A stretch of DNA of 64,000 bases from Boswellia sacra (Eukaryota; Streptophyta; Magnoliopsida; Sapindales; Burseraceae). A program made the translations under genes and the position numbers. Position 1 is the stretch's first letter; each line of letters starts with the position of its first letter. Below the pieces are notes generated by a model. It ran no database searches. It saw only the letters and a program-made list of their open reading frames with translations, and had not been told where the DNA came from. Shown in pieces: positions 6,588-64,000 of the stretch. Location: positions 22,263 through 86,262 of the forward strand of contig SNVD02013826.1 of NCBI GenBank assembly GCA_013180625.2, read 5' to 3'.

Positions 6588-8038
6588 TGTGAATAGGACT
6601 TTCATCCTGTTAGAGCATTTGCGACCACGACATTGTGTCAAAACCTCTTTCGAGATTTATAGGAACACAAATGAGCTATGGACACATCTAAAGAATAGAG
6701 TTGCCACCCAATTGTTCAATTAGAAATGAATTGGGACAATCCGATCTCTCGCTTTAGGACCTAAACTACCCTTATCCTTTCAAAGATGGGTTCGAGAATT
6801 TAGGTATAAGTTACAAGCCTCTCGCCTCCGCTAGGTTATACTAATTAAGAATAGTTTATATTATTATACAGTCTGTTTAAGTAGTTCGTTTTATGCACAC
6901 ATTTTCAATTTTATATTTTTTTAGCATGTAAGGTGATTTTCAATTAACAACAATTGTATATTCATACAAAGAAAGAGATGAGGAGAATAGAGTTATAATT
7001 TCCTTGCAAACATGGGGGATAGGGGATAAGATTACATTGCTCTTCAACAAATAAAGTAAATTTACTTCTAAACACTTCAAATATTCAATGATATAAAATA
7101 TTTCATACATAGCATATTCATGCAAATCATATATTCAATAAGCAATCAATTCGAGACTTGATAAATAAGGAAATCCCCACCACTATATGTGAGTCTATTC
7201 CATGCTTATCAAGCCTTTTCATGCATATTCATGTTACGTATTTAATCATTTATATATTCTAAGTAATGGTACCTTGCCATCAGTGTGAGTCCATCATCAC
7301 TTCATGGCATCATATAATCATTCAATTATGGTATATTCACACATGCATTCATAATAAATCAATTAAAATTCTAATTAAGGCCATAAACTAAAATCATGAC
7401 ACTTCTAACTAATTCGATAATTCTGTCATGGTAATTCTACTAATTGCTATTCTAGCATAATTCAATTGATAACGGTAATTCTAAATATGACAATTCTAGC
7501 CTAAACATGGCATTTCTAGCCCAATCAATCAATCAATATCAAACATGGCCATTCTAGCCTAATTCCTATCATTCAAGTCTAAATAAACGAAAGTAATCAT
7601 GGCAATTCCAACCAATCGAAGCAATTCTTGTCCATTCTATACTATTTCCTAGCATGCTTCAAAACAATTACAAGTCTTTCTAAATATGATTCTATTCATG
7701 TGCTCTTAAGTGTGATTCTAAACATGTTCTTAAACATGTTTCTAAGCATTCGCAAAGAAAATAAACTCCTAATCATGTTTCTAAATAAGAAAAGAAAAGT
7801 GGACTTACCTTGACACACTTTTCCATCTCGCAAAACAAACAAGGATTAGAACAACTCATAATAATCCTAAACAAGCTTCTAAGCATAAAAAAAAAACCTA
7901 AACATGCTTATTCTAAGTATAAACAAACCTAGACATGCTTATTCTAAAGCAAGAAAAATAAATAAGAAAAGACGAGGGAGAAGAGAGAACTGCTCTTAGG
8001 ACGTACCTTTCCAGGTTTAGAGTAATATAAAACACCTA
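6588..8038 (-). repeat. LTR A (3' LTR of X), first part
   Basis: Starts TGTGAATAGGACTTTCATCC, the reverse complement of the TatW LTR end GGATGAAAG...TTCACA. It runs to 8038, where solo LTR B interrupts it in the phrase 'agtaatataaaacaccta'. It resumes at 9841. It contains repeated 'catggcaattctagcc' units that recur in every TatW LTR. Confidence 0.75.
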
Positions 8039-47787: not shown

Positions 47788-49509
47788 ATGGTCGCACCCA
47801 ACAACATCAATGTAAAAATGAACCAATTAAGAGCTAACATGACCGCACTCTAGCAACAAGTGGCTCAACTCATTGAAGCACTCCAAAATGGGCCTCATCG
47901 CATGAATTAGCCGTCACTTGAGGGTAATGATGATGGTGACGGCAAAACTAGCCTAGGCAGAAATAAGGAGAAAAGCCCGGTCAACCAAAAAGAACCCGAA
48001 TCGATTAGACAGCTGGTCAAGGACATGGAAAAGGTCTAATCACTCTTGAAGAAGAAGAGGTTGAAGGGGGTCGAAGGCCGAGATGACATTTTGCTTATGG
48101 GAGATCAAGACTTGCCTCTAAAGTTTCGTTTATCAGACTTACCCAAATTCAATGGAAAGGGGAATCCTAAGACATATTTGAGGTAATATGCAGCCATCAT
48201 GGCCACTACTCCTTTGATGAAGGAGCACATACTGAAATACTTTATTCTATCCCTAGAAGACGATGCGATAGCATGGTATCATGACCTTCAGAAAAGAGTT
48301 TGAGAAGATTGGGAGGAGTTTTTCCAACAATTGGTATAGTAGTACTACCACAATACCTAATTAGGGGTAACCTTGAGAGATTTAGAGACAATAAGGCAAA
48401 AGCCCAACGAGACTTTTTCGGAGTATCTAGTTCGTTAGAGGGCTAAGGTAGCCAAGATAACCACCAGGCCTACAAAAAAAGACCAAGTTTGCATGGTGAT
48501 CAATGGGGCCCATAGCTTCATTAGCGGTAGACTAACGGGTTTTTCCATCAAAACATTAGAAGACTTTTATGACTCAGGTATCCAAATAGAAGAGAAGGAA
48601 TCTGGATAGAAGAGAAGTAACCTTAGCTACCCTCGAAAAATTCAAGGGCAGTATCACCAACCTAGTGGGTCAAGCATGAAGCATGTAGAGGTAAAGGTGG
48701 TTGCCCTACAAAGAAGATTTAGTTGTTTGAGGAGGCCGCTTTCTAAAGTCTTTGCAAGGTTGAGAATCGAAGGGATCATGTAGCCATTGCCACCAAGAGA
48801 GCTCCCAAATCTACTACCAAGGAATTGGAGGCACTATGAGAAAAGTGAGTTCCATCAAATGACCGGTCACAAGATTGATGATTGCACTCGCCTTCACTAT
48901 GAGATTCAAGATTTGATCGACAAAGGCCAGATTCCCGACCCAGAAACATATGAGCCTAACACAAGGAGTAATGCTTTGCCCAATTATAACTGGGTGCCTC
49001 CTCCATCGACCAACATGATTAGATCGGGCTTGACTAAAGAGAAACTTATGAACTCTTTCGAGGAAAGTAAATCGAGTAGGGCTGAGAGAGTCGAGACAGC
49101 CAAGAGAAGGGAGAAATCAGAGTTATAATAAATGGCTAGGAAAGTGGTTTCGAAGAAGAAGCCCAAGGTTGAGGAACCTAAAGGGCCCAAGGAGATCATT
49201 GAGAGGGTGGAAGACGAGGCCATTCCTTTGGTAGTCAAGATTCAAATCAAGGAGGGTGGATGGACTAATATTGTAACGAAGGGAGTCAAACGAAGCTTAG
49301 AACCGAAACCTATGAACCTCAGTAACCAAGAAGAGGAGGAACCACAAGAAGAGGAAGAAAAAGAAGTTAAAGTGACACCTACCAAGGGGAAGTCCACACC
49401 ATAGAGTGCCTTTACCAAGAAGTAGATGGCCAAAGAAAGGGCTAGAAAAGGCCCACCATCTAAAACACTCAAGGTGAAGAAGGGTAGTAAAGCTAGGAAA
49501 GGCAAGTGA
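47788..49509 (+). pseudogene. gag of element L (Tat type), single frame with many stop codons
   Basis: One frame from ATG 47788 ('MVAPNNINVKMNQL') to TGA near 49509. Features in order: an N-terminal coiled segment, 'LPLKFRLSDLPKFNGKGNPK' (about 48110-48175), 'EHILKYFILSLEDDAIAWYH', 'TLRDLETIRQKPNETFSEYL', 'RRPLSKVFARLRIEGI', and a zinc-knuckle remnant 'SEFHQMTGHKIDDC' with its first Cys changed to Ser. Then come 'LHYEIQDLIDKGQIPDP' and an acidic/basic tail. There is no frameshift in this long stretch but about 15 in-frame stops. Nearly all are TAG, TAA or TGA at positions explained by C-to-T from Gln or Arg codons, or G-to-A from Trp. Confidence 0.8.
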
Positions 49510-50375
49510 GTTGAAAGTCTTGTGAGGAGAGAGAGCTTACCTAGAAGGTATAAAAACGTAAGAGTTATAGGGATTTGGGATGACATCCCTCAAGCCAAGA
49601 CCATTCCAAACTTTTGGCTGACTTTAGTAGTAACAAAGAAGAAGGGGTGAGAGTTGAGGAAGAAATACATGAGGGAGAAACACTTAGGGTTGAGAAAAAA
49701 AATGCCCAAGGAGTGACAAGGAGTGGTAGATTTTACCATGAGAAAGAAAAAGAGAAACCAACTGAGAAGATAGTTGAGAAGGGCAAAAAAGTTGCCAAAG
49801 AGAAAGAAACCAAAGAAGATGCCAAAGAGGAAGAAACCAAAGAAGAAGAGATCAAGTGATCAAACAACTAAAGAAGACTCAACCGAATGCTAGCATTTGA
49901 GATTTTCTTATTTCATCTCAAAAGCATAGAGAAGCCATGGCGAAGGCTGTGGCAGAGGTAGAGATATCAATGACTGCTATTACTAGTGAAATGTTGACTG
50001 CCTTGGCTGGGGGAACACCCAAGGGGTAAAAGAGAGGGGTGAAATCACCTTTATTGATAAAGATCTACCTTTCCAAGGAAGGAATCATAATAAGCTCTTG
50101 TTCATCACCATGAAAATTAGTGGGAAGACATCCCCTTATATCATGGTGAATGATGGGTTCGCCATTAACATTGTGCCTATAAAGATATTACACAAGTACG
50201 GAGTCAACAAAGATGAGCTTAAGCCTTTATGAGATGGTGATCAAGGCTTACGATGATTCAGAGAGGAGTGCCATCGGGATCTTCAAGGCATTAATGAAGA
50301 CTGGGCTAATTGAAGTCATGACAGAATTCACAGTCCTTCACATTCTAGTCACCTTTAGTGCCTTACTAGGATGAG
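49510..50375 (+). pseudogene. Linker and aspartic protease of element L, truncated
   Basis: A charged linker (49614-49859) contains 'VTRSGRFY', the TRSGR motif that precedes protease in Tat/Ogre elements. It is followed by 'SQKHREAMAKAVAEVEI' and then the protease start 'ITFIDKDLPFQGRNHNKLLF', with the active-site strand 'MVNDGFAINIVPIKIL', where D-x-G is altered from the usual DNGS/DNG. Reading continues to 'KALMKTG' and 'EFTVLH' in shifted frames. It ends at 'FSALLG', where element R is inserted at 50376. Confidence 0.7.
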
Positions 50376-51760
50376 TGACACATCCGAAAATAGGATTGTC
50401 TCCCAAGTATAGGAGTGTCGAAGTAATAAACCCGGTGAGTCCGGGGTCGATCCACGAGGAAGGAAATTTAAGCGCTACAAACTATAAAGTAAGCAATATG
50501 ATGTGGATGATTTAAAGAGATGACAAGATAATATTAACAAATATAAATAAGGAACAAGTTCATAAACAATAAATTAGAATCACACAAGAAAAATCAACAC
50601 AATAATAATGAAGGCTAAGGTTAGGGGATCCGCCCTTGATATTTCAAATAAGGATAATTAACCCATTTTAGTTATATGAATTATATTTGTTTCATTACCA
50701 ATATTTATACCACTTCTTGTAAATGGGTTCAAGCATCCAATGTGCCAATCATCATATGTCTACAACAAATCAAGGTTCCTAACTAGATTTGTGTCGGTAA
50801 GAAAGAACCATACAACATCTAGGAAGGATCCAAGCATTTGATGTGCCAAGGATTGTCAACAATGGATCAAGACCTCCACCTTACGAGTGGTGTCAAGATT
50901 GATTAAGAAATTAAATATAAATCATATTGAATAAACATTATAAGATTAAGATTATTAAGCACATATTAAGGGTTAGAGAATCCTTATTCTCATATCAAGG
51001 GTTTCACCCTTTCACCTTAGCAAAAGAGAAATTAGAAGAACATTATAATAGAAAGAAAATAAAATGCAAGAAAAAGGAAATTCATTAATAACATAAACAC
51101 ACAAAACACAATACAAGATCCTAGCCAAAGCCAAAATGTTCCAGCCAAGGCCAAGATGCCCTAATGGGTCACAAGGCACCTCTATTTATAGATACATCCA
51201 GGGGCAAACTTGTCAAATTACAAGGGCATAATTGTCAAATATTAGTTGTAAATATCTTTGACAATTGGGATCATTAGGCACCGACTTTGACCATCAATTT
51301 TGACATTGAAATGTTGAGAATTTTAATCACATGTCTTCATGAAAGTTGTACATATTTCTCTCAGCTTTCTAGAACATATTGATTTGCACAATTTGGATAC
51401 GTATTTTGAGAGATATGGTCCAAATACTAAGGCCTGGTCAGACTGGACCGAGACTGTAGATGGGTTCACTTCAAGCCCAATTTTGGTCTACTAAAAGCCC
51501 GAATTTGATGATGCTTGTGAAATGTAATCTTGTAGATAATTGAATCCGCTTTCCAAAACATTAAGAATTGCATCATCCTGATCTATAAATAGAGAGTTAT
51601 GTCCATTTTACCGAACCTATAACAAAACCAAAATTAAGAGGAAGTTAATTCCAAAGATGCAAAGACTACAAATATGCTTAAGTTGAGAAATTTAATGACA
51701 CTATTAATGCAATATGATGAGCTAAGCTCATATTAAATATACATATTTAAGTGTTCATCA
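50376..51760 (-). repeat. 3' LTR of element R
   Basis: On the minus strand TGATGAACACTTAAATATG ... TTTTCGGATGTGTCA, 1,385 bp. Sister LTR F (59583-61104) is the same family but about 140 bp longer because of a repeat block missing here. The TATA box on the minus strand is at 51182-51190 (TATAAATAGA). Confidence 0.85.
51182..51190 (-). promoter_or_regulatory. TATA box of LTR R
   Basis: Minus strand TATAAATAGA, the same sequence and place as 60152-60160 in LTR F. Confidence 0.6.
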
Positions 51761-51775
51761 CACCCCCCAGCTAGC
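51761..51775 (-). promoter_or_regulatory. Polypurine tract of element R
   Basis: Minus strand gctagctggggggtg, directly before the LTR terminus TGATGAAC. Confidence 0.75.
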
Positions 51776-52065
51776 TTTTTGCTAGTCCCTAGCAATTAAA
51801 ACGTTATTATTTAGAAGTGATTTATAGAATTTTACATCCAAGGTGGTCATTATTGCACTCTCCTTGATTTTATCCAAATAAACAAACTCTCAACCAATTA
51901 TTATTATTATTTTTTTTTTTATGACTCATGTACCCTTCGGTCAAGATATCTATAAACCTTCTTTTTGTGCTCAGTCAACACATGACTATGGGGCTTATTA
52001 GAAAGAAGCGATATCGGTTCTAATATTTGTTAAGCCTAACAACCTTAGGTAAGGGGCATTTATTC

Positions 52066-52067
<2 letters not shown>

Positions 52068-52115
<48 letters not shown>
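52068..52115. repeat. (TA)n microsatellite
   Basis: About 24 uninterrupted TA units followed by a T-rich run. Confidence 0.95.
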
Positions 52116-52119
<4 letters not shown>

Positions 52120-52992
52120 TTCTCTTTTTTTTTTTAAAGGAATGCATCTTTAACCCATGTAGCGAGCCTTAGGCTAATGACTCCCAGACCAGTTGGCCTT
52201 AGGGCATTAGGTGTTAAGACACCCATTCGAGCTTAACGACTCGGGTTGCCGATGCTTTATTTTTGCTTAGAAACTTGTGGATAGTGCAATGTTCAATCCC
52301 ATTAAGCTTTCTCCTTAATTCATGTAGCGAGCTTTGGGCCAATAGCTCCCAAACCAGTTGGTCTTAAGGTATTAGGTGTTGAGGCATCCCTCGGGCTTAA
52401 TTGCTCGAATTAAGGAGGCTACGAGACCAAACTTATCCACAATTGCTTTCTCTTTTTTTTTTTTTCTTTTTTTTTTCACTTTTTTTTTTTTTAAACTTTC
52501 CCTTTCCTTTGTGTTGTTATCCTAAACAAAACAAAAGAACTCAAATATTACAACATTTCATTTTGCCATCCATAATCATGCATCAAGGTATGTGTGTGTG
52601 TGGAAGAAAGGTTCTGAATACTTGCTTAATGAGTACTAAGCACAAAGACACAATTTTTTAATGATACGGTTGTGAGAGTTCATAGATTTGATAATTTCAA
52701 AAGTGAAATGAATGACACTCCTGTTATAAATTCAAAATCAAAGACTAAATAATAATCAAGTTTTTTTAGCAAAATGAGTTCACAAGATCAAAGATAAAAT
52801 GAAACAAATTTGGTTAGAATATGGTTCAAGAGTTCAAACTGGCCCTCCCTACTCCTGCCATTCCTGACCCAGATGCGTCTCAAGAAGGATTTGAAACTCC
52901 TTTTACCAACCAACACCGCACTCTGACTCTAATTACTAACTCGCTTTTTTTTTTTAAGAAAAAGAAAATTCAAGACACACTTATGTCTACTA

Positions 52993-53034
52993 TCCTTCCC
53001 CCCCCAACCAAATGAAACATTGTCCTCAATGTTT
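52993..53034 (-). promoter_or_regulatory. Conserved dyad and G tract, polypurine-like
   Basis: On the minus strand AAACATTG-AGGA-CAATGTTT forms a perfect 8-bp dyad, followed by TCATTTGGTTGGGGGGGGAAGGA. I recall this dyad-plus-G-tract from the 3' part of many plant Athila-like elements. It may be an internal second polypurine tract. The LOG-like gene ends about 160 bp upstream of it. Confidence 0.5.
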
Positions 53035-53192
53035 AAATGTAGAGAGATAAAGTATAGGAGACATTACCTGAAACTTCTATTATTCACGAGAGATGACCTG
53101 AAAGACTTATAAAATAAAATAAAATAAAGCACAAGAAAACATTACAAACGGAGATTCAGATCCAATTTGCACTTTTTGTTTTGCCCTCTTGC

Positions 53193-53791
53193 CTAATTAA
53201 TTTGAGTACTAGCTGGGTCAGGTTCGTACTCTATTGCTTGTAATTTGTCAAGTAACTCACAAGCAGAAGTGGCAGAAACAAGGATGTGTCTCGCCCAATG
53301 TGGGATAAAATTTTGTTCTACAGCTGCATCAACAAAACTTATTAAAGGATCAAAGAAATTGTTAACATTCAACAAACCTATGGGTTTTTGATGGAGGTTC
53401 AGTTGGGCCCAAGAGGCAATTTGAAAAATTTCTTCAAGAGTGCCAAAGCCACCTGGTAAAGCAATAAAGGTATCTGAATTGATGAGCATATGTGCCATGC
53501 GTTCATGCATAGAGGAGACCTGTAACTCCTTCCCAACCGTTTTTCCAACAATGCTTTCTAAGCCAAAGCTTTAGGAATAACTCCTAACACTTGACTACCT
53601 CCTACATGTGCAGCTATTGATACGCAACCCATTAACCCGAGGCTACCTCCCCCATAAACCACATGAATCTTTCTTTCAGCTAGTAATCTACCAAGATAAT
53701 TTGCTGCCTCGACAAACTCTTCACTTTTACCTGGTCGAGATCCACAGAATACACATATCCTTTGGATTCGACGTTTTGAAGTTCCCTCCAT
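53193..53791 (-). pseudogene. LOG-like cytokinin riboside 5'-monophosphate phosphoribohydrolase gene in element R
   Basis: LOG enzymes release active cytokinin free bases from their nucleotides in the cytosol. The first segment (53791-53558, 77 codons) has 'CVFCGS' (residues 13-18), the nucleotide-site 'VVYGGGSLGLMG' (44-55) and 'GVIPKALA'. The second (53510-53193, 105 codons) has 'MHERMAHM', the signature 'LPGGFGTLEE' (PGGxGTxxE) and 'SWAQLNLHQKPIGLLNV'. Between them a single-base loss (about 53567-53573) shifts the frame; the intervening sequence is LOG-like in the other frame. Total length (about 199 codons) equals ordinary plant LOG proteins. There are no introns, whereas plant LOG genes normally have several, so this is a processed copy. 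It lies downstream of the Cys-rich ORF, same strand, inside the retrotransposon. The identity as a LOG family member is firm; activity and the capture route are not. Confidence 0.85.
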
Positions 53792-53840
53792 GTCTATGTA
53801 ACTCTCTAACTATGTGTGAAGAAGAGAACAAGAGATGTGG

Positions 53841-53850
53841 TATTTATGGA
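53841..53850 (-). promoter_or_regulatory. TATA-like box upstream of the LOG-like gene
   Basis: Minus strand TCCATAAATA lies 50 bp before the ATG at 53791. A pyrimidine-rich leader ('ctcttgttctcttcttcacac') lies between them. Spacing suits an internal core promoter with a short leader; no functional evidence. Confidence 0.4.
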
Positions 53851-54174
53851 GTGTAAAAAGGTATGCTAATGATGACATCCAAATAGGTAGCTCGGCTACT
53901 TGTTGAAAAATTCAACAATTATGCATAGAAATTCAAAAAAAATGATGAAATAAGACACCATAAGTCAAACAAAAGATACAAATTCAAAAATGACAGCTAT
54001 AAGGCATTAAAATTTCAAAAATGATGGCACGCATGCATATGTACAGGTAGTTGTGACTGTGGCTCACATCTTCCTCTGGTTTTACGTCCAGAAACGGCTT
54101 AAACACCTTCTATGAGTTGGGGATATGCTTCCCATCCAGTTTTCTTATAAACTGGCAAACAGGGTCGTTTTGAG
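53851..54174 (-). other. Spacer between the two accessory genes of R
   Basis: About 320 bp of AT-rich sequence, with no reading frame conserved in type. It holds 'atgatggcacgcatgcatatg' and, near 54060-54120, coding-like codons after the stop of the Cys-rich ORF in other frames. No other feature was recognised. Confidence 0.4.
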
Positions 54175-54666
54175 TCAGATTCCCAAGACTATAGCGTTCC
54201 TGCTCATCTCGAATTGTGTCCACAAATTAAAAATTTCACGCTGCACAAGTCCACAAGAATGCGTCTCAAGAGTCGTTCGAGTCGTTCGGATATCATCCAA
54301 AGACTCCTTACTCAGTCCATTCTTAATGAACTGTAGTTTATCCTCTCGATTGTTAGACAAATATCCCAAGGAGCGGCAACGCTGGTTACAAGTCCATCTT
54401 GCACATCTGGGACAAACTTGTAACCTTTTCGCTTTTCGCTTTTTGGCATAAGAGCTTTTTCCCATACCTGGCATGTGAGATACAAGATTATCTGAAAATT
54501 CATAGGAAAATCGAACCTTGGCTTCAATTAACCATCTTACTTTGATAGGTATACCCTTACACATCAACATCCTTAGTCTTTCTGCACGAGCTTTGTAAAT
54601 TTTAAGCAAATCATTTGGAGGAAGAGAGGGAAAATGTTTGTGCAGATTTGAGAGAATGGTGTCCAT
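54175..54666 (-). CDS. Accessory ORF of R: basic Cys4 protein resembling viral nucleic-acid-binding proteins
   Basis: An intact 163-codon frame 117 bp after the pol stop, in the place of the env-like gene of Athila elements. Residues 1-25 read 'MDTILSNLHKHFPSLPPNDL'. A basic run 'KSSYAKKRKAKR' (70-81) leads into Cys85-x2-Cys88-x4-Cys93-x3-Cys97, then 'KLQFIKNGLSKE' (110-121). A basic 'K-S-x-Y-A-x-x-R/K-R/K' stretch abutting a Cys cluster is the architecture of the small cysteine-rich nucleic-acid-binding proteins (Viral_NABP family) of carlaviruses and relatives, which bind nucleic acid and in several viruses affect RNA silencing. The Cys spacing differs from the viral one, so homology is a hypothesis. 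An independent zinc ribbon is the alternative. It has no stop or shift while pol around it has several. Confidence 0.55.
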   Translation of the reverse strand: MDTILSNLHKHFPSLPPNDLLKIYKARAERLRMLMCKGIPIKVRWLIEAKVRFSYEFSDNLVSHMPGMGKSSYAKKRKAKRLQVCPRCARWTCNQRCRSLGYLSNNREDKLQFIKNGLSKESLDDIRTTRTTLETHSCGLVQREIFNLWTQFEMSRNAIVLGI

Positions 54667-54782
54667 GCGAGAAAAAAAAGGAAAATGAATGCAAGGTGAG
54701 CAACAGTTTTTAGGGAATTGAAAAACCGACTTTAAATGTCACGGAGTACCATATCCACCACTTGACCGGGAAAAATCAATCC

Positions 54783-57700
54783 TTAAAAAGGATCGATTAA
54801 AGCAATGGACTCTTCGTTTTGGGTAAAATTTTCTAAGAATGGTTTTAACCGTTGTCCATTAACTTTAAACACATGACCATTCTTTGGGTTCTCAATTTCA
54901 ATTGCTCCATGAGGGAAAACATTTTTAACAATGAAAGGCCCAGTCCAACGTGACCGAAGTTTACCAGGAAATAAATGCAACCTTGAATCATACAAAAGAA
55001 CTTTTTGTGAAGGTTCAAAAGATTTTCTAACCATAAATTTGTCATGAAAAAACCTTCATTTTTTCTTTGTAGATTTTAGAATTTTCATAAGCCTCATTCC
55101 TAATTTCTTCAAGTTCACTCAGTTGGAATTTACGTAATTTGCAAGCATCATTCAAATTTGTGTTGAATGTTTTAATGGCCCAATAAGCTTTATGCTCAAT
55201 TTTCACAGGCAAGTGACAAGGTTTTCCATAAACTAGTCTATAAGGAGACATTCCCAATGATGTTTTAAAAGCAGTTCGGTAAGCCCAAAGTGCATCATTA
55301 AGTCTTAAAAGACCAATCTTTACGATTTGGGTTAACCGTTTTTTCTAAGATCTGTTTTATCTCCCTATTAGCTAATTCAACTTGTCCATTTGTTTGTGGG
55401 TGATAAGGTGTAGAAATTTTATGGGTTATTCCATATTTCTTCATTAAAGTTTCAAATGGTTTGTTACAAAAATGTGTACCTCCATCACTAATAATGGCTC
55501 GAGGAATTCCAAATCTACTCAAGATATTCTCTTTCAAGAATTTGACAACTGTTTTGTGATCATTGTTTCGGCATGGAATTGCCTCGACCCATTTTGAGAC
55601 ATAATCTACTGCAACAAGGATGTACACAAAACCAAATGATGGTGGAAAGGGTCCCATAAAATCAATACCCCAACAGTCAAAGATTTCAACAACAAGAATG
55701 GGATTCAAAGGCATCATATTTCTTTTTAAAATGGATCCCAATTTTTGACAATTTTCACACGTTTTGCAAAATGCATGTGCATCTTTAAATAAGGTGGGCC
55801 AATAAAATCCACATTGTAAGATCTTAGCAGTTGTTTTTCTAGATGAAAAATGTCCTCCACATACTTTAGAATGACAAAAGTTAATGACACTACTTACCTC
55901 ATTGCCGGGTATGCATCTTCTCATTATTTGGTCTGAACAATATTTGAACAGATATGGGTCATCCCATTAAAAATTTTTCACCTCGTTTAAAAATTTTCTT
56001 TTGTCTTGAGCATTCTAATGAGGTGGCATTTTCCCTGTCGCAAGAAAATTTACAATGTTAGCAAACCAAGGTACAGTAGCAACGAAAAATAAAAATTCAT
56101 CAGGAAAAGAATCATTGATAGGTGAAGTTTCAATTAATGTCTCTGTCGTTAGTCTTGAAAGATGGTCAGCAACGACATTTTCGGCTCCTTTCTTATCCTT
56201 TATTGTGATGTTAAATTCTTGGAGCAATAAGATCCACCGTATCAATCTAGGTTTTGCATCCTGTTTAGACATTAAATATCTCACAGCTGCATGGTCAGTG
56301 TAAACAATTGTTGGAGAGCCAATTAAATAAGATCGAAATTTGTCCCATGCAAATACTACTGCAAGTAGTTCTTTCTCAGTTGTTGTGTAATTCATTTGTG
56401 CATCATTTAAAGTCCTACTTGCATAGTATATTACATAAGGCTTACCTTCTTTTCTTTGTCCTAATACAGCACCAACGGCATAGTCACTTGCATCACACAT
56501 CAATTCAAAAGGCAAGGACCAATCAGGAGATTGCATAATTGGAGCAGTTGTTAAAAGTCCAATTAATGTATCAAAGGCATTTTGACAATCTTGAGTCCAT
56601 TCAAAGGAAGTATCTTTTATTAAGAGGTTACAAAGAGGTTTAGATATAGCACTGAAATTTCTTATGAACCTCCTATAAAATCCAGCATGCCCTAAGAATG
56701 AACGAACCTCTTTAACTATTTTTGGTGGAGGCAAATGGGAAATTAATTCCACTTTTGCTTTATCCACTTCAATTCCTTTAGAAGACACCACATGACCTAA
56801 AACAATTTTTGAAGTGACCATATAATGACATTTTTTTCAATTCAAAATAAGACCTTTTTCTACACACCTTTTTAGGACTTTTTATAAATTTTCAAGACAA
56901 TTATCAAAAGAGTTTCCAAAGACAGTTAAATCATCCATGAAAACTTCTAAACAATGTTCAACCCTGTCACTGAAAATGCTTAACATGCATCTTTGAAAAG
57001 TGGCTGGGGCATTACAAAGTCCAAAAGGCATTCTCCTAAATGCAAAAGTGCCGAAGGGGCACGTGAATGTGGTCATTTCTTGGTCTTCAAGTGCAATGGG
57101 AATTTGATAATAGCCTGAGTATCCATCAACAAAGCAGTAATAGGGGTGTCCTGCTACTCTTTCAAGAATTTGGTCAAGGAAAGGTAAAGGAAAATGGTCT
57201 TTTCTAGTGACAGCATTTAATTTTCTATAATCAATGCACATCCTCCAACTAGATGAGACACGAGTTGGCAATGATTCACCCTTTTCATTTTTAACGACTG
57301 TAATGCCAGATTTCTTAGGTACTACTTGTGTAGGTCTTACCCACTTGCTATCAGAAATAGGGTAGATAATTCCCACATCAAGTAGTTTAAGAACTTCAGC
57401 CCTAATAACCTCTTTCATATGTGGATTTAATCTTCTTTGAGGTTGTTGAGATGTTTTGGCATTTTCCTCTAAATGTATTCTATGTGTGCAAATTAAAGGG
57501 TTAATGCCTTTTATAACTTTTAAAGTCCACCCGATTGCATTTTTATGCCTTTTAAGCACTTGTATCAACTTACCTTGTTGCTCGCATGTGAGAGATGAAG
57601 AAATTACCACTGGATATGTCTGATTCTCCCCAAGATATGCATATTTCAGTCCTTCAGGTAAGGGCTTCAATTCTAACCTGGGAGCTTCATCTTCCTTGCT

Positions 57701-57931
57701 TTCATTCATTTTCCCCAATTCTTCAAATCTTGATTTTGAGCCTTTTTCCATCACCTGTGCACAATCCAATAAAGAACATATATCGGAAAGATCAGACTCA
57801 AGTTCCATGCTTGGTTCTAATGAATTTACTAGACAAGTTTCCAAAGGGTCAGATGAACTCCCTTTTTGGATGTGATCTTCCACAATAGATTCAATTACAG
57901 TGTGGGCACTGCGGTATATGAGATGTGTCAA
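54783..57931 (-). pseudogene. pol of element R: RT, RNase H, integrase
   Basis: RT (57931-56882): 'HIHLEENAK'-type lead, 'GIIYPISDSKWVRPTQVVPKK', 'CIDYRKLNAVT', catalytic 'FMDD' (residues 331-334). RNase H (56821-56015): '[14 protein letters not shown]', '[15 protein letters not shown]', '[10 protein letters not shown]'. Integrase (55924-54783): 'HSKVCGGHF'...'CKTCENC' zinc site, DD35E motifs in 'GIDFMGPF', 'ISDGGTHF', '[12 protein letters not shown]', and the C-terminal 'KLRSRWTGPFIV' and 'HGAIEIENPKNGHVFKVNG' signature of Athila. The first three segments share one frame, interrupted by stops at 56882-56884, near 56837, at 56015-56017 and near 55973. Single-base shifts follow near 55310 and at a T run near 55040. 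The protein ends 'IALIDPF' with TAA at 54783. Confidence 0.9.
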
Positions 57932-58090
57932 GTGGCTGTCGTTGCTGAGTGCAGAAAATAAAATGGGAGTTGGATATGAGACATCACAGGGTAGTCATTA
58001 GAAGCGCAACATTCACATTTCCTTGTCATAGCGACTCGTTACTAATCAGTTATCGATTACAGAGAGTTACTCAGTCCTGCAATTAATCAA
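57905..58090 (-). other. Non-homologous block between protease and RT of R
   Basis: Sister element F has a normal Athila-like stretch here (63395-63510, 'WIMKLSFGNMILELSVFN'). R instead has about 160 bp with no similarity, flanked by shared sequence 'ctaatgctttgattaattgcag' and 'attgaatctattgtggaagatc'. Origin not recognised. Confidence 0.6.
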
Positions 58091-58657
58091 AGCATTAGAG
58101 GTAGCTAGAATGGACATCCCCTAAAAAACAGGAATTGAATTGCTTACTTCTACTTGTTTGTGTGTCCAAGCGATAAAATGCACTGGTAATGAATTTATCA
58201 ACTTGAACTAACACATCTTCTACTATTCCTCTTGGTACTTTAATTGATCTATCAGCAAGCAAAAGATTGACAGAAGTTGGTTTTAACTCACCTAGATTGA
58301 GTTTTTGAAAAACCGAGTATGGAAGCAAATTCACACTAGCACCAAGATCAAGTAAGCTTGTTCAATTTTATGGTCTCCAATAACACATGAAATTGTAGGA
58401 CAACCTGGATCCTTATATTTCACTGTATTATTATTTTGCAGAATAGCACTTACTTGCTCGGCTAGAAAGGCCTTCTTTTTCACATTTAGTTTTCTTTTTA
58501 CCGTGCACAAGTCTTTCAAAAATTTTGCATAAGAAGGTACCTGTTTGATCACATCAAGCAAGGGAATGTTGAACTTTACCTGTTTGAAAATTTCAAAGAT
58601 TTCAGAATTGTGAGTTTGCTTCTTTTGTGTGGCTAATGCTTGAGGAAATGGAGGCAC
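58091..58657 (-). pseudogene. gag-pro linker and aspartic protease of R
   Basis: The linker (58657-58340) has 'FEIFKQVKFNIPLLDVIKQV', 'PSYAKFLKDLCTVKRKLNVK' and 'SAILQNN', typical before Athila protease. Compared with F, one T is missing near 58345, which shifts the frame in the middle of the active-site strand DLGAS. The second part (58334-58095) carries 'MNLLPYSVFQKLNLGELKPT' and 'LLLADRSIKVPRGIVEDVLV'. Athila proteases characteristically have D-L-G in place of D-T/S-G. Confidence 0.8.
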
Positions 58658-59582
58658 AGATGAGGATATGGTTTCCTCTTCGCTAGGTATTGGTTTGGTA
58701 ACCTCTTCCTGCCCTTAGAGATCGATCTTCTTCTTCTCACAGGTCAGGAATGTTTTTTCAAACAATCTTACCTTGCGAAGGGTCTATGACGACTTGGCTT
58801 AGTCAATATGGTTACTTGAACTCCTGCGTTTGATTAGATTGATCTTTGGGGTTTTGCAATTTTGAGAAGGAAATTTCCCTTCTCTTGGATGCTAAATGTA
58901 GATGCAAATTTTTGCAGGGAAAGTTTCTGACCAATTTGCTAATGTTTTAGTAGTTTGACTATTGAAAGTCTCTTGCTTTGTAATGAATGTTCAATGTTTT
59001 CTTCAGTCATTCCTAGGAGAAGGAGCATATGCATGATCATGAGAATTTTGAAAATTTTGTTCGTGTTGTGAAGAGGGACTTGTGAAGATTGTGCATGCTT
59101 GTCATTTTTCCAGCTAAAATTTGGATGATTTCTCCAACCAGGATTGTAGGTTTGTGAATATGGATTGTGATTTGGCCTTTTGAAAGTGTTCAAGGCATTG
59201 GCTTCTTCATGGAGACATTCCCTAAAGGCAGGCAAAGTTGGGCAATCATCAGTAGAATGGTTATTGTCATCACAAATATTACAGACATTTTCTTGAATAG
59301 AATTCAATTGACCACCCTTTTTCATTTCTAAAGCCTCAACTTTTCTAGCTAGGGATGCATTTTTGGCTTGAAGGTCATGGTCTTCCCTAAGGTTGTAAAT
59401 ACCTCTATTGGATGTCGAGGTTTGGGCCTTGCTTGGTACCTCATAGGTGCCAGCAGTGTCCCAATTTTGTGCCTTTTCTGCCAAGGAATCTAGGAAGTCA
59501 AGTGCTTCCTCAGGGTCTTTTTCTTTAAATTCTCCTTTACACATTAATTCTACTAGTTGCCTATCTTGAGGTGTTAACCCTT
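58658..59582 (-). pseudogene. gag of R, C-terminal part, truncated by element F
   Basis: From the junction: 'GLTPQDRQLVELMCKGEFKE', 'EEALDFLDSLAEKAQNWDTA', zinc knuckle C-x2-C-x4-H-x4-C ('CNICDDNNHSTDDC'), 'FKRPNHNPYSQTYNPGWRNH'. After about 59060 a shift breaks the frame. The N-terminal two-thirds of gag should be beyond F, outside the window. The closest relative is the gag of F itself, differing by few residues in the overlap. Confidence 0.85.
59578..59582. repeat. Putative left target duplication of element F (ccctt)
   Basis: ccctt precedes the LTR terminus TGATGAAC. The other copy should follow the 3' LTR of F outside the window, so this is unconfirmed. Confidence 0.5.
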
Positions 59583-61104
59583 TGATGAACACTTAAATAT
59601 GCATGTTTAATAAGAGTTTAGTTCATCATATTGCATTAATAGTGTCATTAAATTCCTCAACTTAAGCATATTTGTAGCATTTGCATCTTTGGAATTAATT
59701 TCTCTTAATTTTGGTTTTGTTACAGGTTGGGTAAAATGGGCATAACTCTCTATTTATAGATCAGAATGGTGCAATTCTTAATGTTTTGGAAAGCTAATTT
59801 AATTGTCTACAAGATTGCATTTCACAAGAATCATCAAATTCGGGCTCTTAGTGGACCAAAATTGGGCTTGAATTGAACCCATCTACAGTCTCGGCCCAGT
59901 CTGACCAGGCCTCAGTATTTGGACCGTATCTCTCAAAATACGTATCCAAATTGTGCAAATCAATATGTTCTAGAAATCTGAGAGAAATATGTACAACTTT
60001 CATGAAGATATGTGATTAAAATTCTCAACATTTCAATGTCAAAATTGATAGTCAAAGTCGGTGCCTAATGATCCCAATTGTCAAAGATATTTACAACTAA
60101 TATTTGACAATTATGCCCTTGTAATTTGACAAGTTTGCCCCTGGATGTATCTATAAATAGAGGTTCCTTGTGACCCATTAGGACATCTTGGCCTTGGCTG
60201 GAACATTTTGGCTTTGGCTAGGATCTTGTATTGTGTTTTTATGTTATTAATGAATTTCCTTTTTCTTACATTTTATTTTCTTTCTATTATAATGTTCTTC
60301 TAATTTCTCTTTTGCTAAGATGAAAGGGTGAAACCCTTAATATGAGAATAAAGATTCTCTAACCTTTGATATGTGCTTAATTGTCATAATATTGTGTTGT
60401 TTATTTTATATGATTTATATTTATTTTCTTAATCAATCTTGACACCACTCGTAAAGTGGAGGTTTTGATCCATTGTCGACAATCCTTGGCAAATCAAATG
60501 CTTGGATCCTTTCTAGATGATGTATGGTTCTTCCTTACCGACACGAATCTAGTTAGGTACCTTGATTTGTTGTAGATATATAGTGATTGGCACATTGGAT
60601 GCTTGAACCCATTTACAAGTAGTGGTATAAATATTGGTAACGAAACAAATATAATTCATTTAACTAAAACGGGTTGTTTATCCTTATTTGAAATATCAAG
60701 GGCGGATCCCCTAACTTTAGCTTTCATTATTATTGTGTTAATTCCTCTTGTATTTTAATTATTCTATTGTTTATGAACTTTTTATTTTATTTACTATGGT
60801 AGGTTCTACCACCTTTTGAAATTGTTCTTTAATTTACTATGGTTGGTTATACCACCTATTTCCATGGATGGTTTTACCTCCTCTTGCTTTTTGTTTTCTA
60901 TTTGAATGGTCGGTAATACCACCTACCATCTTACATACTTGTTGATATTATCATGTCACCTCTTTGAATCATCCATATCACATTTGTTTAGCTTATAATT
61001 TGTAACGCTTAAATCCCCTTCCTCGTGGATCGACCCCGGTCTCACCGGGTTTTATTACTTCGACACTCCTATACTTGGGAGACAATCCTTTTTCGGATGT
61101 GTCG
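59583..61104 (+). repeat. 5' LTR of element F
   Basis: TGATGAACACTTAAATATGC to ...TTTTTCGGATGTGTCG, 1,522 bp. The last base pair is CG instead of the CA seen in R. The end part 'cctcgtggatcgaccccgg' and 'gacactcctatacttggg' is shared with R. A block at about 60795-60935 absent from R contains four degenerate copies of 'atggttggttataccacct'. Confidence 0.85.
60152..60160 (+). promoter_or_regulatory. TATA box of LTR F
   Basis: TATAAATAG in 'gatgtatctataaatagagg', with 'ccttgtgacccattaggac' following as probable start of R. Confidence 0.65.
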
Positions 61105-61110
61105 AGTTTT

Positions 61111-61128
61111 TGGCGCCGGTGCCGGGGA
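61111..61128 (+). promoter_or_regulatory. Primer-binding site of element F (Asp-tRNA type)
   Basis: TGGCGCCGGTGCCGGGGA differs by one base from TGGCGCCGTTGCCGGGGA, the Asp-tRNA-complementary site known from Athila elements. It lies six bases after the LTR. Confidence 0.85.
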
Positions 61129-61246
61129 AGGTAAAAATTGGCGTGCAAAATTGTAAGTATTCTCTTTTCTCATCTTAGATCAAAATTTTTTATTTTTTTT
61201 TTTTTGTGAGTTCATCTTTTCCTCTCCTTTCTTCTCTCTTTCTTGC

Positions 61247-62683
61247 ATGAAAATTTGGTCACGAACATCTAGTGGTAGACTTGTTAGAAAAACATCATCT
61301 TTCTTAGAAAACATGGCCGACAATCATGAGGAAATATTCACGGATGAAAGGGACAACCGTTCGCAACAAAATGATCAAAACCAACGAAGAACCCTCAGAG
61401 ACTACATGAATCCGGTAAGGACTAGTGCGCCATCTTGTGTAGTTTCTCCTCCAGATTCAATCCATTTCAATTTCAAACCAAGTTTTGTTGGACTTCTACC
61501 CACTTTTCATGGCCTTGACATGGAGAACCCATATTCCCACTTGAAACTCTTTGAAGAGTTATGTAGCTCCTACACTGACCCAAATTGTAGCATAAACACC
61601 ATTAGATTAAAGCTTTTTTCTTTTTCTTTAAAAGATAAGGCTAGAACATGGCTACAAAATTTGAGGTCGAATTCCATTAGTTCATGGGATGAGATGAAAC
61701 AACAATTTTTGAAAAAATTTTTTCCTACCCATAGAACAAATTCTCTTAAAAGACAAATTTCTGATTTCTCTCAGAAACAAGGGGAAACCCTTTACCAATG
61801 TTGTGATAGATATAAGGAACTACTTAATACCTGTCCTCACCATGGTTTCGAAACTTGGAGAATAGTTGCACACTTCTATGAAGGGTTAACACCTCAAGAT
61901 AGGCAACTAGTAGAATTAATGTGTAGAGGAGAATTTAAAGAAAAAGACCTTGAGGAAGCACTTGACTTCATAGATTCCTTAGCAGAAAAGGCACAAAATT
62001 GGGACACTGCTGGCACCTATGAGGTACCAAGCAAGGCCCAAACCTCGACATCCAATAGAGGTATTTACAACCTTAGGGAAGACCATAACCTTCAAGCCAA
62101 ATATGCATTCCTAGCTAGAAAAGTCGAGGCTTTAGAAATGAAAAAGAGTGGTCAATTGAATTCTATTCAAGAAAATGTCTGTAACATTTGTGATGACAAT
62201 GACCATTCTACTGATAATTGTCCAACTTTGCCTGCCTTTAGGGAATGTCTCCATGAAGAAGCCAATGACTTGAACACTTTCAAAAGGCCAAATCACAATC
62301 CATATTCACAAACCTACAATCCTGGTTGGAGAAATCATCCAAATTTTAGCTCGAAAAATGATAATCATGCACAATCTTCACAAGTCCCTTTTCAAACACG
62401 ACAAAATTTTCAAAATTCTCATGATCATGCATATGCTCCTCCTCCTAGGAATGACTTTGAGGAAACATTGCATTCATTCATTACAAAGCAAGAGACTTTC
62501 AATAGTCAAACTTCTCAAACATTAGCAAATTTGTCAGAAACTCTTGCAAAATTTGCATCTACATGTAGCATCCAAGAGAAAGGAAAATTTCCTTCTCAAA
62601 CATTGCAAAACCCCAAAGATCAATCTAACTCAAATGCAGGAATTCAAATAACCATTATTTTGACCAAGCCAAGTCAGTCATGA
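61247..62683 (+). CDS. gag of element F (Athila-like), 478 codons
   Basis: The capsid/nucleocapsid protein of the retrotransposon. The first ATG is at 61247; an in-frame ATG at 61313 ('MADNHEEIF') is a likely alternative start because related gags begin similarly. The gag domain (about residues 95-230) reads 'FVGLLPTFHGLDMENPYSHL', 'LFSFSLKDKARTWLQNL', 'SWDEMKQQFLKKFFP' and 'ETLYQCCDRYKELL'. The zinc knuckle 'CNICDDNDHSTDNC' is near residues 311-324. The C-terminal part is Asn/Gln-rich with 'NPYSQTYNPGWRNHPNF'. It is uninterrupted except that the frame shifts at the end (62670-62683) relative to the gag-pro linker, where R and related elements appear to read through. Confidence 0.9.
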   Translation: MKIWSRTSSGRLVRKTSSFLENMADNHEEIFTDERDNRSQQNDQNQRRTLRDYMNPVRTSAPSCVVSPPDSIHFNFKPSFVGLLPTFHGLDMENPYSHLKLFEELCSSYTDPNCSINTIRLKLFSFSLKDKARTWLQNLRSNSISSWDEMKQQFLKKFFPTHRTNSLKRQISDFSQKQGETLYQCCDRYKELLNTCPHHGFETWRIVAHFYEGLTPQDRQLVELMCRGEFKEKDLEEALDFIDSLAEKAQNWDTAGTYEVPSKAQTSTSNRGIYNLREDHNLQAKYAFLARKVEALEMKKSGQLNSIQENVCNICDDNDHSTDNCPTLPAFRECLHEEANDLNTFKRPNHNPYSQTYNPGWRNHPNFSSKNDNHAQSSQVPFQTRQNFQNSHDHAYAPPPRNDFEETLHSFITKQETFNSQTSQTLANLSETLAKFASTCSIQEKGKFPSQTLQNPKDQSNSNAGIQITIILTKPSQS

Positions 62684-63360
62684 CCCTTTGCAATGGTAAG
62701 GTTGTTGAAAAACACATTCCTAATCCTTGTGAGAAAGAAGAAGAATCAATCTCTAAAGGACAAGAAGAGGTTGCCAACCCAACACCTAGCGAAGAAGAAA
62801 CCAAATCCTCATCTGTGCCTCCATTTCCTCAAGCATTAGCTACACCAAAGAAGACAACTCATAATTCTGAAATCTTTGAAATTTTCAAACAGGTAAAGGT
62901 CAACATTCCCTTGCTTGATGTGATCAAACAGGTACCTTCTTATGCAAATTTTTTGAAAGAATTGTGCACTGTGAAAAGAAAACTAAATGTGAAAAAGAAG
63001 GCCTTTCTAGCCGAGCAAGTAAGTGCTATTCTTCAAAATAATTATACAGTGAAATATAAGGATCCAGGTTGTCCTACAATTTCATGTATTATTGGAGAGC
63101 ATAAAATTGAACAAGCTTTACTTGATCTTGGTGCTAGTGTGAATTTGCTTTCATACTCGATTTTTTCAAAACTCAATCTAGGTGGTTAAAACCAACTTCT
63201 GTGACTCTTTTGCTTGCTGATAGATCATTAAGTACCACAACCAGAGAATATTAAAGATGTATTGTTTCAGTTCGATAAATTCATTTACCCAGTGGATTTT
63301 TATCGTCTTGGACACACAACCAGTAGAATAAGCAATTCAATTCCTGTTATTTAGGGCTCA
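62680..63360 (+). pseudogene. gag-pro linker and protease of F
   Basis: 'VMTLCNGKVVEKHI'-type start, acidic stretch, 'IFKQVKVNIPLLDVIKQVPS', 'SAILQNNYTVKYKDPGCPT', and the active-site segment 'LLDLGASVNLLSYSIFSKL'. The frame ends at 63187-63189 (TAA) by a shift just after 'LNLGG'. Similar codons continue to about 63360 in other frames ('LLADRS', 'FDKFIYPVDFYRLG'), so the protease is broken in its second half. Confidence 0.8.
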
Positions 63361-63394
63361 TTTCTAGCTACTTCTAATGCTTTGATTTATTGGC

Positions 63395-64000
63395 AGGAAT
63401 GGATCATGAAGCTATCATTTGGGAACATGATATTAGAACTTAGTGTTTTTAATATGTGCAAACACCAAATTAAGAAGAAGATTAAGTTGATGACGCCAAT
63501 GTAAATTGAATCTATTGTGGAAGATCACATCCAAAAAGGGAGTTCTTCTGACCCTTTGGAAACTCTCTAGTGATCATTAGAATCAAGCATGGAACTAGAG
63601 TCTGATCTTTCTGATTTATGCTCTTTATTGGATTGTGCACAGGTGATGGAAAAAGGCTCAAAATCAAGATTTGAAGAATTGGGGCAAATGAATGAAAGCA
63701 AGGAAGATGAAGCCCCCAAGCTAGAATTGAAGCCCTTACCTGAAGGACTGAAATATGCATATCTTGGGGAGAATCAGACATATCCGGTGGTAATTTCTTC
63801 ATCCCTCACATGCGAGCAACAAGGTAAGTTGATAGAAGTGCTTAAAAGGCATAAAAATGTAATTGGGTGGACTTTAAAAGATATAAAAGGCATTAACCCT
63901 TTAATTTGCACACATAGAATACATTTAGAGGAAAATGCCAAAACATCTCCACAACCTCAAAGGAGATTAAATCCATACATGAAAGAGGTCATTAGGGCTG
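63395..64000 (+). pseudogene. Protease-RT spacer and N-terminal part of RT of F
   Basis: 'WIMKLSFGNMILELSVFN' (63397-63455), then 'IESIVEDHIQKGSSSDPLET' with two closely spaced stops (63570 region), then open reading from about 63585: 'DLCSLLDCAQVMEKGSKSRF', 'LELKPLPEGLKYAYLGENQ', 'CEQQGKLIEVLKRHKNVIGW', 'LICTHRIHLEENAK', 'RRLNPYMKEVIRA'. It matches the start of R pol closely. The catalytic RT part is outside the window. Confidence 0.85.

Follow-up and report, generated by a model that had tools for sequence, protein, structure and literature searches.

The genome of Boswellia sacra holds, inside an Athila-like retrotransposon, a reading frame for a LONELY GUY (LOG) enzyme of the cytokinin-activating family. 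The locus raises the question of whether LOG is a gene of the element or a piece of host sequence that landed there, and, if it is a gene of the element, what it may do for its carrier. We addressed this question from the window (the whole 64,000-nucleotide stretch of contig SNVD02013826.1 that was analyzed), from other copies in the same assembly, and from relatives in other plants.

Layout of the window element and its LOG frame

A preliminary description of this DNA had reported an intronless LOG frame on the pol strand between integrase and the 3' LTR, and our analysis confirmed this frame as real: it lies on the minus strand, lacks introns, starts at an ATG at 53791, and sits between integrase and the polypurine tract and 3' LTR. 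The two LOG pieces of the window match Pfam Lysine_decarbox (PF03641, 3e-31) and LDcluster4 (PF18306, 1e-7), and chance resemblance to the LOG family is excluded. The frame had been credited with one single-base break; it carries two lesions: the single-base frameshift, near 53560, and, at 53193-53195, a stop codon in frame. The boundary previously set at 53193 is this premature stop, and the homologous LOG frame continues to 53142. Furthermore, a second extra ORF that had been passed over sits between integrase and LOG (ATG at 54666) and resembles viral nucleic-acid-binding proteins (NABP). The features are as follows.

50376..51760, minus strand: 3' LTR of the window element, with TG at 51760 and CA at 50376 (termini placed from the TSD-bounded copy at G000:C6751) and an 89-93% match to the LTR at 59583
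51761..51771, minus strand: polypurine tract GCTGGGGGGTG, abutting the 3' LTR
53142..53791, minus strand: LOG gene (Pfam match), intronless, broken in the window copy, ATG at 53791
54028..54109, minus strand: conserved noncoding block directly after the NABP stop, with a core at 54058-54088
54110..54666, minus strand: NABP-like ORF, ATG at 54666, 3' end placed by comparison; Carla_C4 match (3.9e-6) above the cut-off and Viral_NABP match (1.7e-4) just below it
55042..55966, minus strand: integrase in two overlapping frames (rve, 8.2e-19; Integrase_H2C2, 1.7e-13), the C-terminal frame without a Pfam match of its own
56015..57994, minus strand: RNase H and reverse transcriptase (RT_RNaseH, 2e-37; RVT_1, 4.2e-21)
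58095..58361, minus strand: protease region, assigned from its position and a DLGAS motif by eye, without a Pfam match
58331..59592, minus strand: gag pieces, truncated at 59583, where the LTR of a neighboring element begins
59583..61104, plus strand: 5' LTR of a second element of this family in opposite orientation, its end placed by eye before a PBS at 61111

Read along the minus strand, the order is truncated gag, protease region, reverse transcriptase (RT) and RNase H, integrase, NABP-like ORF, LOG, a spacer of about 1.4 kb between LOG and the polypurine tract, the tract itself, and the 3' LTR. The pol order is PR-RT-RH-IN, with PR recognized by motif only. The opposite-strand element (59583-64000, plus strand) shows a gag match from 61874 and an RT match from 63505 before the contig ends, which is also the end of the window. 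Its proteins are 89-91% (gag) and 93% (RT) identical to those of the window element, and it is likely a nested insertion into the gag of the window element, with its far side beyond the contig end.

We found LTRs bounded by TG..CA, a 5-bp TSD, a PBS, and a PPT together in one copy, G000:C6751:580346-588542, whose LTRs are 98.2% identical and flanked on both sides by the TSD CTCTC. Its PBS, TGGCGCCGTTGCCGGGGA, is presumably a tRNA-Asp primer site. Primers of the Asp type are among those given for non-chromoviruses (PMC6317226, accessible part). The label "Athila-like" rests on the preliminary description, the gene order, and the PBS. Just past the 3' LTR of the window element, at 48784-50232 on the plus strand, we also observed open frames that look gag-like by eye and perhaps belong to another LTR element.

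LOG and NABP recur at set positions in thousands of copies

In the 639-Mb assembly, we counted 1,799 places for a LOG 30-mer from the family of the window element (type 1) and 4,820 for one from a second family (type 2), both at ≤2 mismatches, and none for a reversed-pattern control; these counts, 6,619 in total, are 30-mer places and not proven full-length genes. The type-1 30-mer matches 31/31 type-1, 0/24 type-2, and 0/13 host loci, and the type-2 30-mer matches 0/31, 24/24, and 0/13, respectively. Intron-split host LOGs, detected with a motif absent from element LOGs, occupy 13 places, some of them near-duplicates. Their closest matches in other plants come from Dipteronia and Mangifera (95%), which suggests an affinity with Sapindales. 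The earlier premise that plant LOG genes have introns holds in this genome, in which the host LOGs are exon-split and the element LOG is intronless. Four host LOG copies (L011, L016, L018, and L021) have an altered PGGxGT motif (GGYVT or GRYVT) and apparently represent a small degenerate or diverged host subfamily.

With the window LOG as DNA query, the best 40 of 2,650 candidates were the query itself and 39 others with 96-97% identity over almost the whole query. A PF03641 profile search of the same genome scored the best 150 of 10,198 candidates, and 150/150 passed the cut-off; 12/14 control genomes also contained the family, which is unsurprising given how widespread it is.

The architecture around LOG was analyzed in 31 type-1 loci (L008 and L022-L051), which are those nearest to the window by DNA, with L008 added from the profile search. 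A tblastn search placed NABP upstream of LOG, with both on one strand, in 24 of these loci and in 6 of the 7 type-2 loci with flanks. It was not found by tblastn in the other 7 type-1 loci, two of which (L034 and L045) are shortened by contig ends; at the DNA level, NABP sequence is present in 29/31. Of 100 places listed for the 31-mer of the conserved block, at least 43 are followed on their own strand, no more than 1.5 kb away, by a perfect match to a LOG 30-mer; the listing of LOG places was confined to perfect matches, so the true number may be higher. In none of the 100 does such a match lie upstream or on the opposite strand. The distance from the conserved block to the LOG 30-mer in type-1 copies is 585-600 bp, and the element's own spacer, common to these copies, lies directly 3' of LOG. 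LOG is present at thousands of places, and in most of the loci sampled NABP precedes it at a constant position.

Had a lone processed pseudogene landed in one element, an intronless frame, broken as in the window copy, would be the result. This reading and that of a chance insertion are ruled out by the recurrent junctions. The 6,619 LOG 30-mer places in two families, the constant spacing to the conserved block in the copies examined, and the element's own spacer following LOG in type-1 copies leave practically no likelihood for the pseudogene.

Integrase sequence lies directly upstream of NABP in 14/31 type-1 loci; in 10/31, what lies there is limited to remains of the linker preceding the RT domain, in some cases with gag pieces. 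With L008, seen through its extension L053, as an eleventh pol-less locus, 11 of the 31 sampled type-1 loci look pol-less while retaining LOG; outside both classes are L029 (gag pieces only) and L031, L034, L045, L047, and L051 (no match). L008/L053 is a complete pol-less element: its LTRs measure 1.53 kb and share 98.2% identity, with 23 mismatches over 1,532 alignment columns, and the TSD CTCTC and a PBS are present. Its gag matches Retrotrans_gag (2.8e-21) and has one in-frame stop followed by a second open stretch, its LOG is intact, its NABP is disturbed near the end, and no RT core or IN was found between its LTRs. A type-2 example, L054, is likewise pol-depleted. Some derivatives without pol still hold gag, NABP, and LOG.

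Two further observations concern these loci. A long open stretch after gag (L053:1112-2194, minus strand), for which we found no Pfam match, ends in a segment that appears strongly hydrophobic and membrane-like by eye. At the 5' side of the type-2 element, L054:3817-6636 contains two tandem LTRs, each about 90.5% identical to the 3' LTR of that element, and recombination between elements is a possible origin.

Purifying selection on LOG and NABP while copies multiplied

We divided variants into two classes: private ones, seen in one copy and mostly due to post-insertion decay, and shared ones, seen in two or more copies and mostly passed on during the active life of the element. Neutral expectations were taken from the type-1 3' spacer. 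For type-1 LOG (31 copies), ω was 0.23 for shared variants (N20/S29) and 0.71 for private variants (N51/S23; Fisher p 0.0028). Type-2 LOG (24 copies) gave 0.19 (N26/S48 and one stop) and 0.62 (N83/S46; p 7e-5), and type-1 NABP (29 copies) gave 0.36 (N23/S23 and two stops) and 0.76 (N74/S32; p 0.027). In the 14 pol-bearing type-1 copies, LOG again differed between shared and private variants (ω 0.15 versus 0.64, p 0.009), and the difference for NABP was not significant (0.36 versus 0.66, p 0.17). In the 11 pol-less type-1 copies, neither LOG (0.24 versus 0.43, p 0.24) nor NABP (0.48 versus 0.45, p 1.0) differed significantly. Comparison of type-1 with type-2 LOGs over 170 pairs (17 by 10 copies) gave a median ω of 0.19 (range, 0.16-0.23), with dN of 0.23, dS of 1.21, and 67% amino-acid identity. 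These findings show purifying selection on LOG, and more weakly on NABP, while the copies multiplied.

Frames free of a stop or indel were found in 16/31 type-1 LOGs, in 9/29 type-1 NABPs, and in 13/24 type-2 LOGs, a sample drawn from the top of the profile ranking, which favors intact frames, so that its intactness is biased upward. LTR elements commonly capture host sequence, and LOG could have been captured once and then carried along by high-copy elements without benefit, as the 15/31 type-1 and 11/24 type-2 LOG copies with a stop or indel might suggest. Such hitch-hiking is contradicted by the selection tests, with ω of about 0.2 both on shared variants and between families; LOG is moreover retained in pol-less copies and belongs to one clade across plant orders (see below). 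We therefore regard it as very improbable that LOG is a passenger, and favor a LOG that helps the element.

Element LOGs form a clade outside the sampled host LOGs

Among homologs of type-1 LOG (best 120 of 7,727), many are from Reevesia, several are from Diplodiscus, Paulownia, and Populus, and others are from Melia, Xanthoceras, Pterospermum, Rehmannia, and metagenome contigs. Two relatives were compared with the window element for signs of a link to an element. The Xanthoceras relative P0001 includes a stretch that by eye resembles the gag/protease linker of the window, and the NABP relative P0227 from Rhamnella starts with an integrase C-terminus that by eye resembles that of the window; both point to retroelements.

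In a tree of 61 sequences with a bacterial outgroup, the 48 element-type LOGs grouped into one clade (SH-aLRT/UFBoot, 90.8/99), and the 11 host LOGs stood separately (99.7/97). A second tree that sampled hosts more widely (39 element-type and 17 host sequences) supported the element-type clade at 98.1/100, and the AU test rejected two alternatives, one joining the element LOGs to LOG8 alone (p 0.016) and one joining them to the remaining LOGs alone (p 0.003). Xanthoceras, with unchanged pocket residues, branches deepest, and support for this position is weak (38/74 for the remaining members of the clade). The relatives, which come from rosids and Lamiales, appear to form one clade outside the host LOGs, in a tree limited by long branches and query-based sampling. 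Long branches are possibly the cause of this position outside the sampled host LOGs, which leaves no nameable donor gene.

The same features could also arise from several independent LOG captures grouped by fast evolution and long-branch attraction: branches in the LOG clade are long, the outgroup is bacterial, all relatives were gathered with one element LOG as query, which favors a single clade, and the deepest branch with its unchanged pocket is only loosely attached. We consider separate captures unlikely, given the shared pocket changes that are absent from 120 host LOGs, the support obtained with the wider host set, and the related NABP ORFs that also occur in Populus, Xanthoceras, and Acer. 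A single lineage is the reading that we carry forward, and its wide taxon spread, together with a dS of 1.2 between families, suggests great age; horizontal transfer may be an alternative to such age.

The preliminary description had set three tests for LOG as a gene of the element: junctions that recur among copies, a dN/dS below 1, and the grouping of element-type LOGs in a single clade. We observed all three, which upholds LOG as an element gene.

Catalytic residues are kept and two pocket residues are replaced

In LOG enzymes, Arg99 and Glu122 are the proposed catalytic residues, adenine is held by Met96, Lys100, and Glu121, and the proposed prenyl pocket is lined by Met96, His97, Lys100, Glu125, and Trp129 (PMC4979012, accessible text). 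In the same text, alanine substitutions at AMP-site residues of the Corynebacterium glutamicum LOG, a site that includes Lys100, nearly abolished activity, with single mutants not itemized there.

The element LOG shares its family, the PGGxGTxxE motif, and the catalytic Arg and Glu with plant LOG enzymes such as AtLOG3 (2a33) and AtLOG8 (1ydh). Among the best 120 of 7,727 relatives, Arg99 is kept in 114, Glu122 in 116, and the Thr of the motif in 119; Glu121 is kept in 116, Trp129 in 118, Met96 in 94, and His97 in 78. In contrast to plant LOG enzymes, the element LOG is intronless, falls in a separate clade, and has Lys100 and Glu125 replaced. Lys100 is kept in only 3 of these 120 relatives (otherwise Met in 53, Ile in 45, Leu in 18, and Thr in 1), as is Glu125 (otherwise Gln in 91, His in 20, and others in 6), and both are retained by the same three sequences, all from Xanthoceras (P0001, P0002, and P0041). 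Each residue is therefore replaced in 117/120 element-type relatives versus 0/120 host LOGs; in the 120 host-type LOGs gathered with a LOG1/LOG3-like query, Arg99, Lys100, Glu121, Glu122, Glu125, and Trp129 are all invariably kept, and AtLOG8 also retains Lys100 and Glu125.

The NCBIfam model CtkRMPhLog (cut-off, 300 bits) gave 110-124 bits for 7/7 element-type LOGs and 135-136 bits for 4/4 plant host LOGs. Since the host LOGs also score below 300 bits, this cut-off does not separate element from host LOGs; the subfamily model TIGR00730 was passed by 11/11 of these sequences.

Judged from these residues, the element LOG is likely an active enzyme, and an altered substrate is plausible. Because two pocket residues are replaced in nearly the whole clade, cytokinin release cannot be assumed, and cytokinin may no longer be the substrate. 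It is quite possible, if somewhat short of an even chance, that LOG has been neofunctionalized into a phosphoribohydrolase acting on another nucleoside monophosphate, for example, for element RNA or DNA synthesis or for host defense signaling. The replacements at Lys100 and Glu125 amid intact host pockets, the retained catalytic Arg99 and Glu122, and the purifying selection all fit such a change, but Met96, His97, and Trp129 are kept often enough that part of the prenyl pocket survives, and a more hydrophobic pocket might still accept a prenylated base.

The partner ORF matches carlavirus-type nucleic-acid-binding proteins

The NABP-like ORF of the window encodes a basic stretch followed by a Cys cluster, and its frame is disturbed near the 3' end in the window copy. 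By its profile matches, this ORF is a putative relative of the carlavirus-type nucleic-acid-binding protein: among 36 members, 29 match Viral_NABP and 28 match Carla_C4 at E≤0.001, with Pfam E-values of about 3e-4 to 1e-8. An NABP profile search of the same genome scored the best 150 of 6,948 candidates, with 150/150 over the cut-off, and found the profile in 0/14 control genomes, a weak control consisting, as far as named, of prokaryotes. Homologs at E≤0.001 numbered 206, of which 120 were listed.

Like the NABP/CRP proteins of carlaviruses, allexiviruses, and mandariviruses (PF01623 and PF05515), the element NABP combines the Pfam match with a basic stretch directly before a Cys cluster; unlike them, it is encoded by a retrotransposon and has a different Cys spacing. 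In our alignment this spacing is C-X2-C-X4-C-X3-C, directly after the basic stretch, and not the carlavirus-type finger C-X2-C-X12-C-X4-C. The latter, following a basic signal, is the signature quoted for one carlavirus (PMC8839810, accessible part). The predicted structure of the element NABP is of low confidence (pLDDT 60, pTM 0.29), a sequence-profile search of the PDB found no relative up to E 1, and a search of IMG/VR viral contigs confirmed no relative of either NABP (P0121) or LOG (P0003). Viral cysteine-rich NABP/CRP proteins are described as silencing suppressors, and p12 of chrysanthemum virus B (CVB) is described as a transcription factor that causes hyperplasia (PMC12172455 and PMC8839810, accessible parts). 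NABP and LOG could act on a common target, cell proliferation.

A conserved noncoding block separates NABP from LOG

About 100 bp after the NABP stop have a π of 0.006-0.014 among type-1 copies, compared with 0.031 for the LOG coding sequence, 0.043 for the part of NABP measured, and 0.062 for the 3' spacer. About 75 nt of this block are nearly invariant between type 1 and type 2, and its 31-base core occurs at 7,184 places in the genome (≤2 mismatches). An unusually stable RNA fold was rejected, with energies no better than those of shuffled sequences for 4/4 sequences (z, -0.05 to -0.39), and Rfam gave no match up to E 1 in positions 50000-61500 of the window; a DNA or splicing element is therefore more likely. 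Nor does the block resemble a hidden ORF, as differences between the families lack codon periodicity by eye. Downstream of the block come T-rich tracts, and by eye the LOG start is preceded in both families by an AG|TTAGAG-like sequence, which would fit a 3' splice site.

Discussion

We consider it probable that this Athila-like Ty3/gypsy lineage carries a two-gene accessory module, an NABP-like protein and a LOG-like nucleotide phosphoribohydrolase, between integrase and the polypurine tract, and that the module helps the element. In this model, NABP would have its kin among the cysteine-rich proteins of carla- and allexiviruses, and the LOG gene would derive from the spliced mRNA of a plant LOG. 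The role of NABP would be to dampen silencing by the host or to act in the nucleus. LOG would split a nucleoside 5'-monophosphate within the cell that expresses it, freeing cytokinin or a related base. The freed base would bias the cell towards division, by which new insertions would reach the germ line. The conserved block and the T-rich tract before LOG may serve separate expression of LOG from a spliced or internally started RNA. A bolder version, which we advance tentatively and hold to be possible and rather doubtful, is an ancient eudicot retrotransposon with a two-gene host-manipulation kit, a viral-type silencing suppressor or transcription factor plus a retuned LOG-family hydrolase, that is kept by selection even in pol-less copies and, like gall-forming bacteria, reprograms the host cell to multiply in cells bound for the germ line.

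The earlier view that no described retrotransposon carries LOG was mistaken. Steinbauerova et al. reportedly found in 2011 "two Athila-like elements with similarity to LOGL4." A YgdH (LOG) domain occurs in Gypsy consensus sequences of Citrus sinensis, C. clementina, and Populus trichocarpa, stated by that source to agree with Steinbauerova et al. 2011 (PMC9289625, accessible text). Set beside ours by description only, these elements share a LOG-family domain in eudicot Ty3/gypsy and possibly belong to the same lineage. For them, the accessible text of PMC9289625 reports the domain and is silent on copy counts, selection, an NABP partner, pol-less derivatives, and pocket changes. The same text reports giant Gypsy elements of Phalaenopsis that carry an AlkB (2-ODD) m6A demethylase, tested in vitro. 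As with LOG, a Gypsy lineage has there acquired a cellular enzyme gene as a fixed additional ORF, but the enzyme is another one and was found only in Phalaenopsis in that screen (PMC9289625, accessible text), whereas the LOG-family gene spans several eudicot orders and has a virus-like partner.

In the literature searched, mostly without subscription papers, we found no report of an NABP partner in searches for NABP or carlavirus proteins with transposons, and no further report of LOG/YgdH with a retrotransposon in searches that also covered extra ORFs in Gypsy elements. In our judgment, the selection on element LOG and NABP and the pocket shift are new.

A LOG-family gene at about 6,600 places in one assembly calls for caution in annotation, and Populus relatives of the element LOG are already annotated as "probable cytokinin riboside 5'-monophosphate phosphoribohydrolase LOGL10." For most of the extra genes that plant LTR retrotransposons carry, no function is known. 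Here, two accessory genes belong to recognizable families, have evolved under purifying selection, and exist in thousands of copies, which makes manipulation of the host cell by a plant retrotransposon, through its hormone state or its silencing, directly testable.
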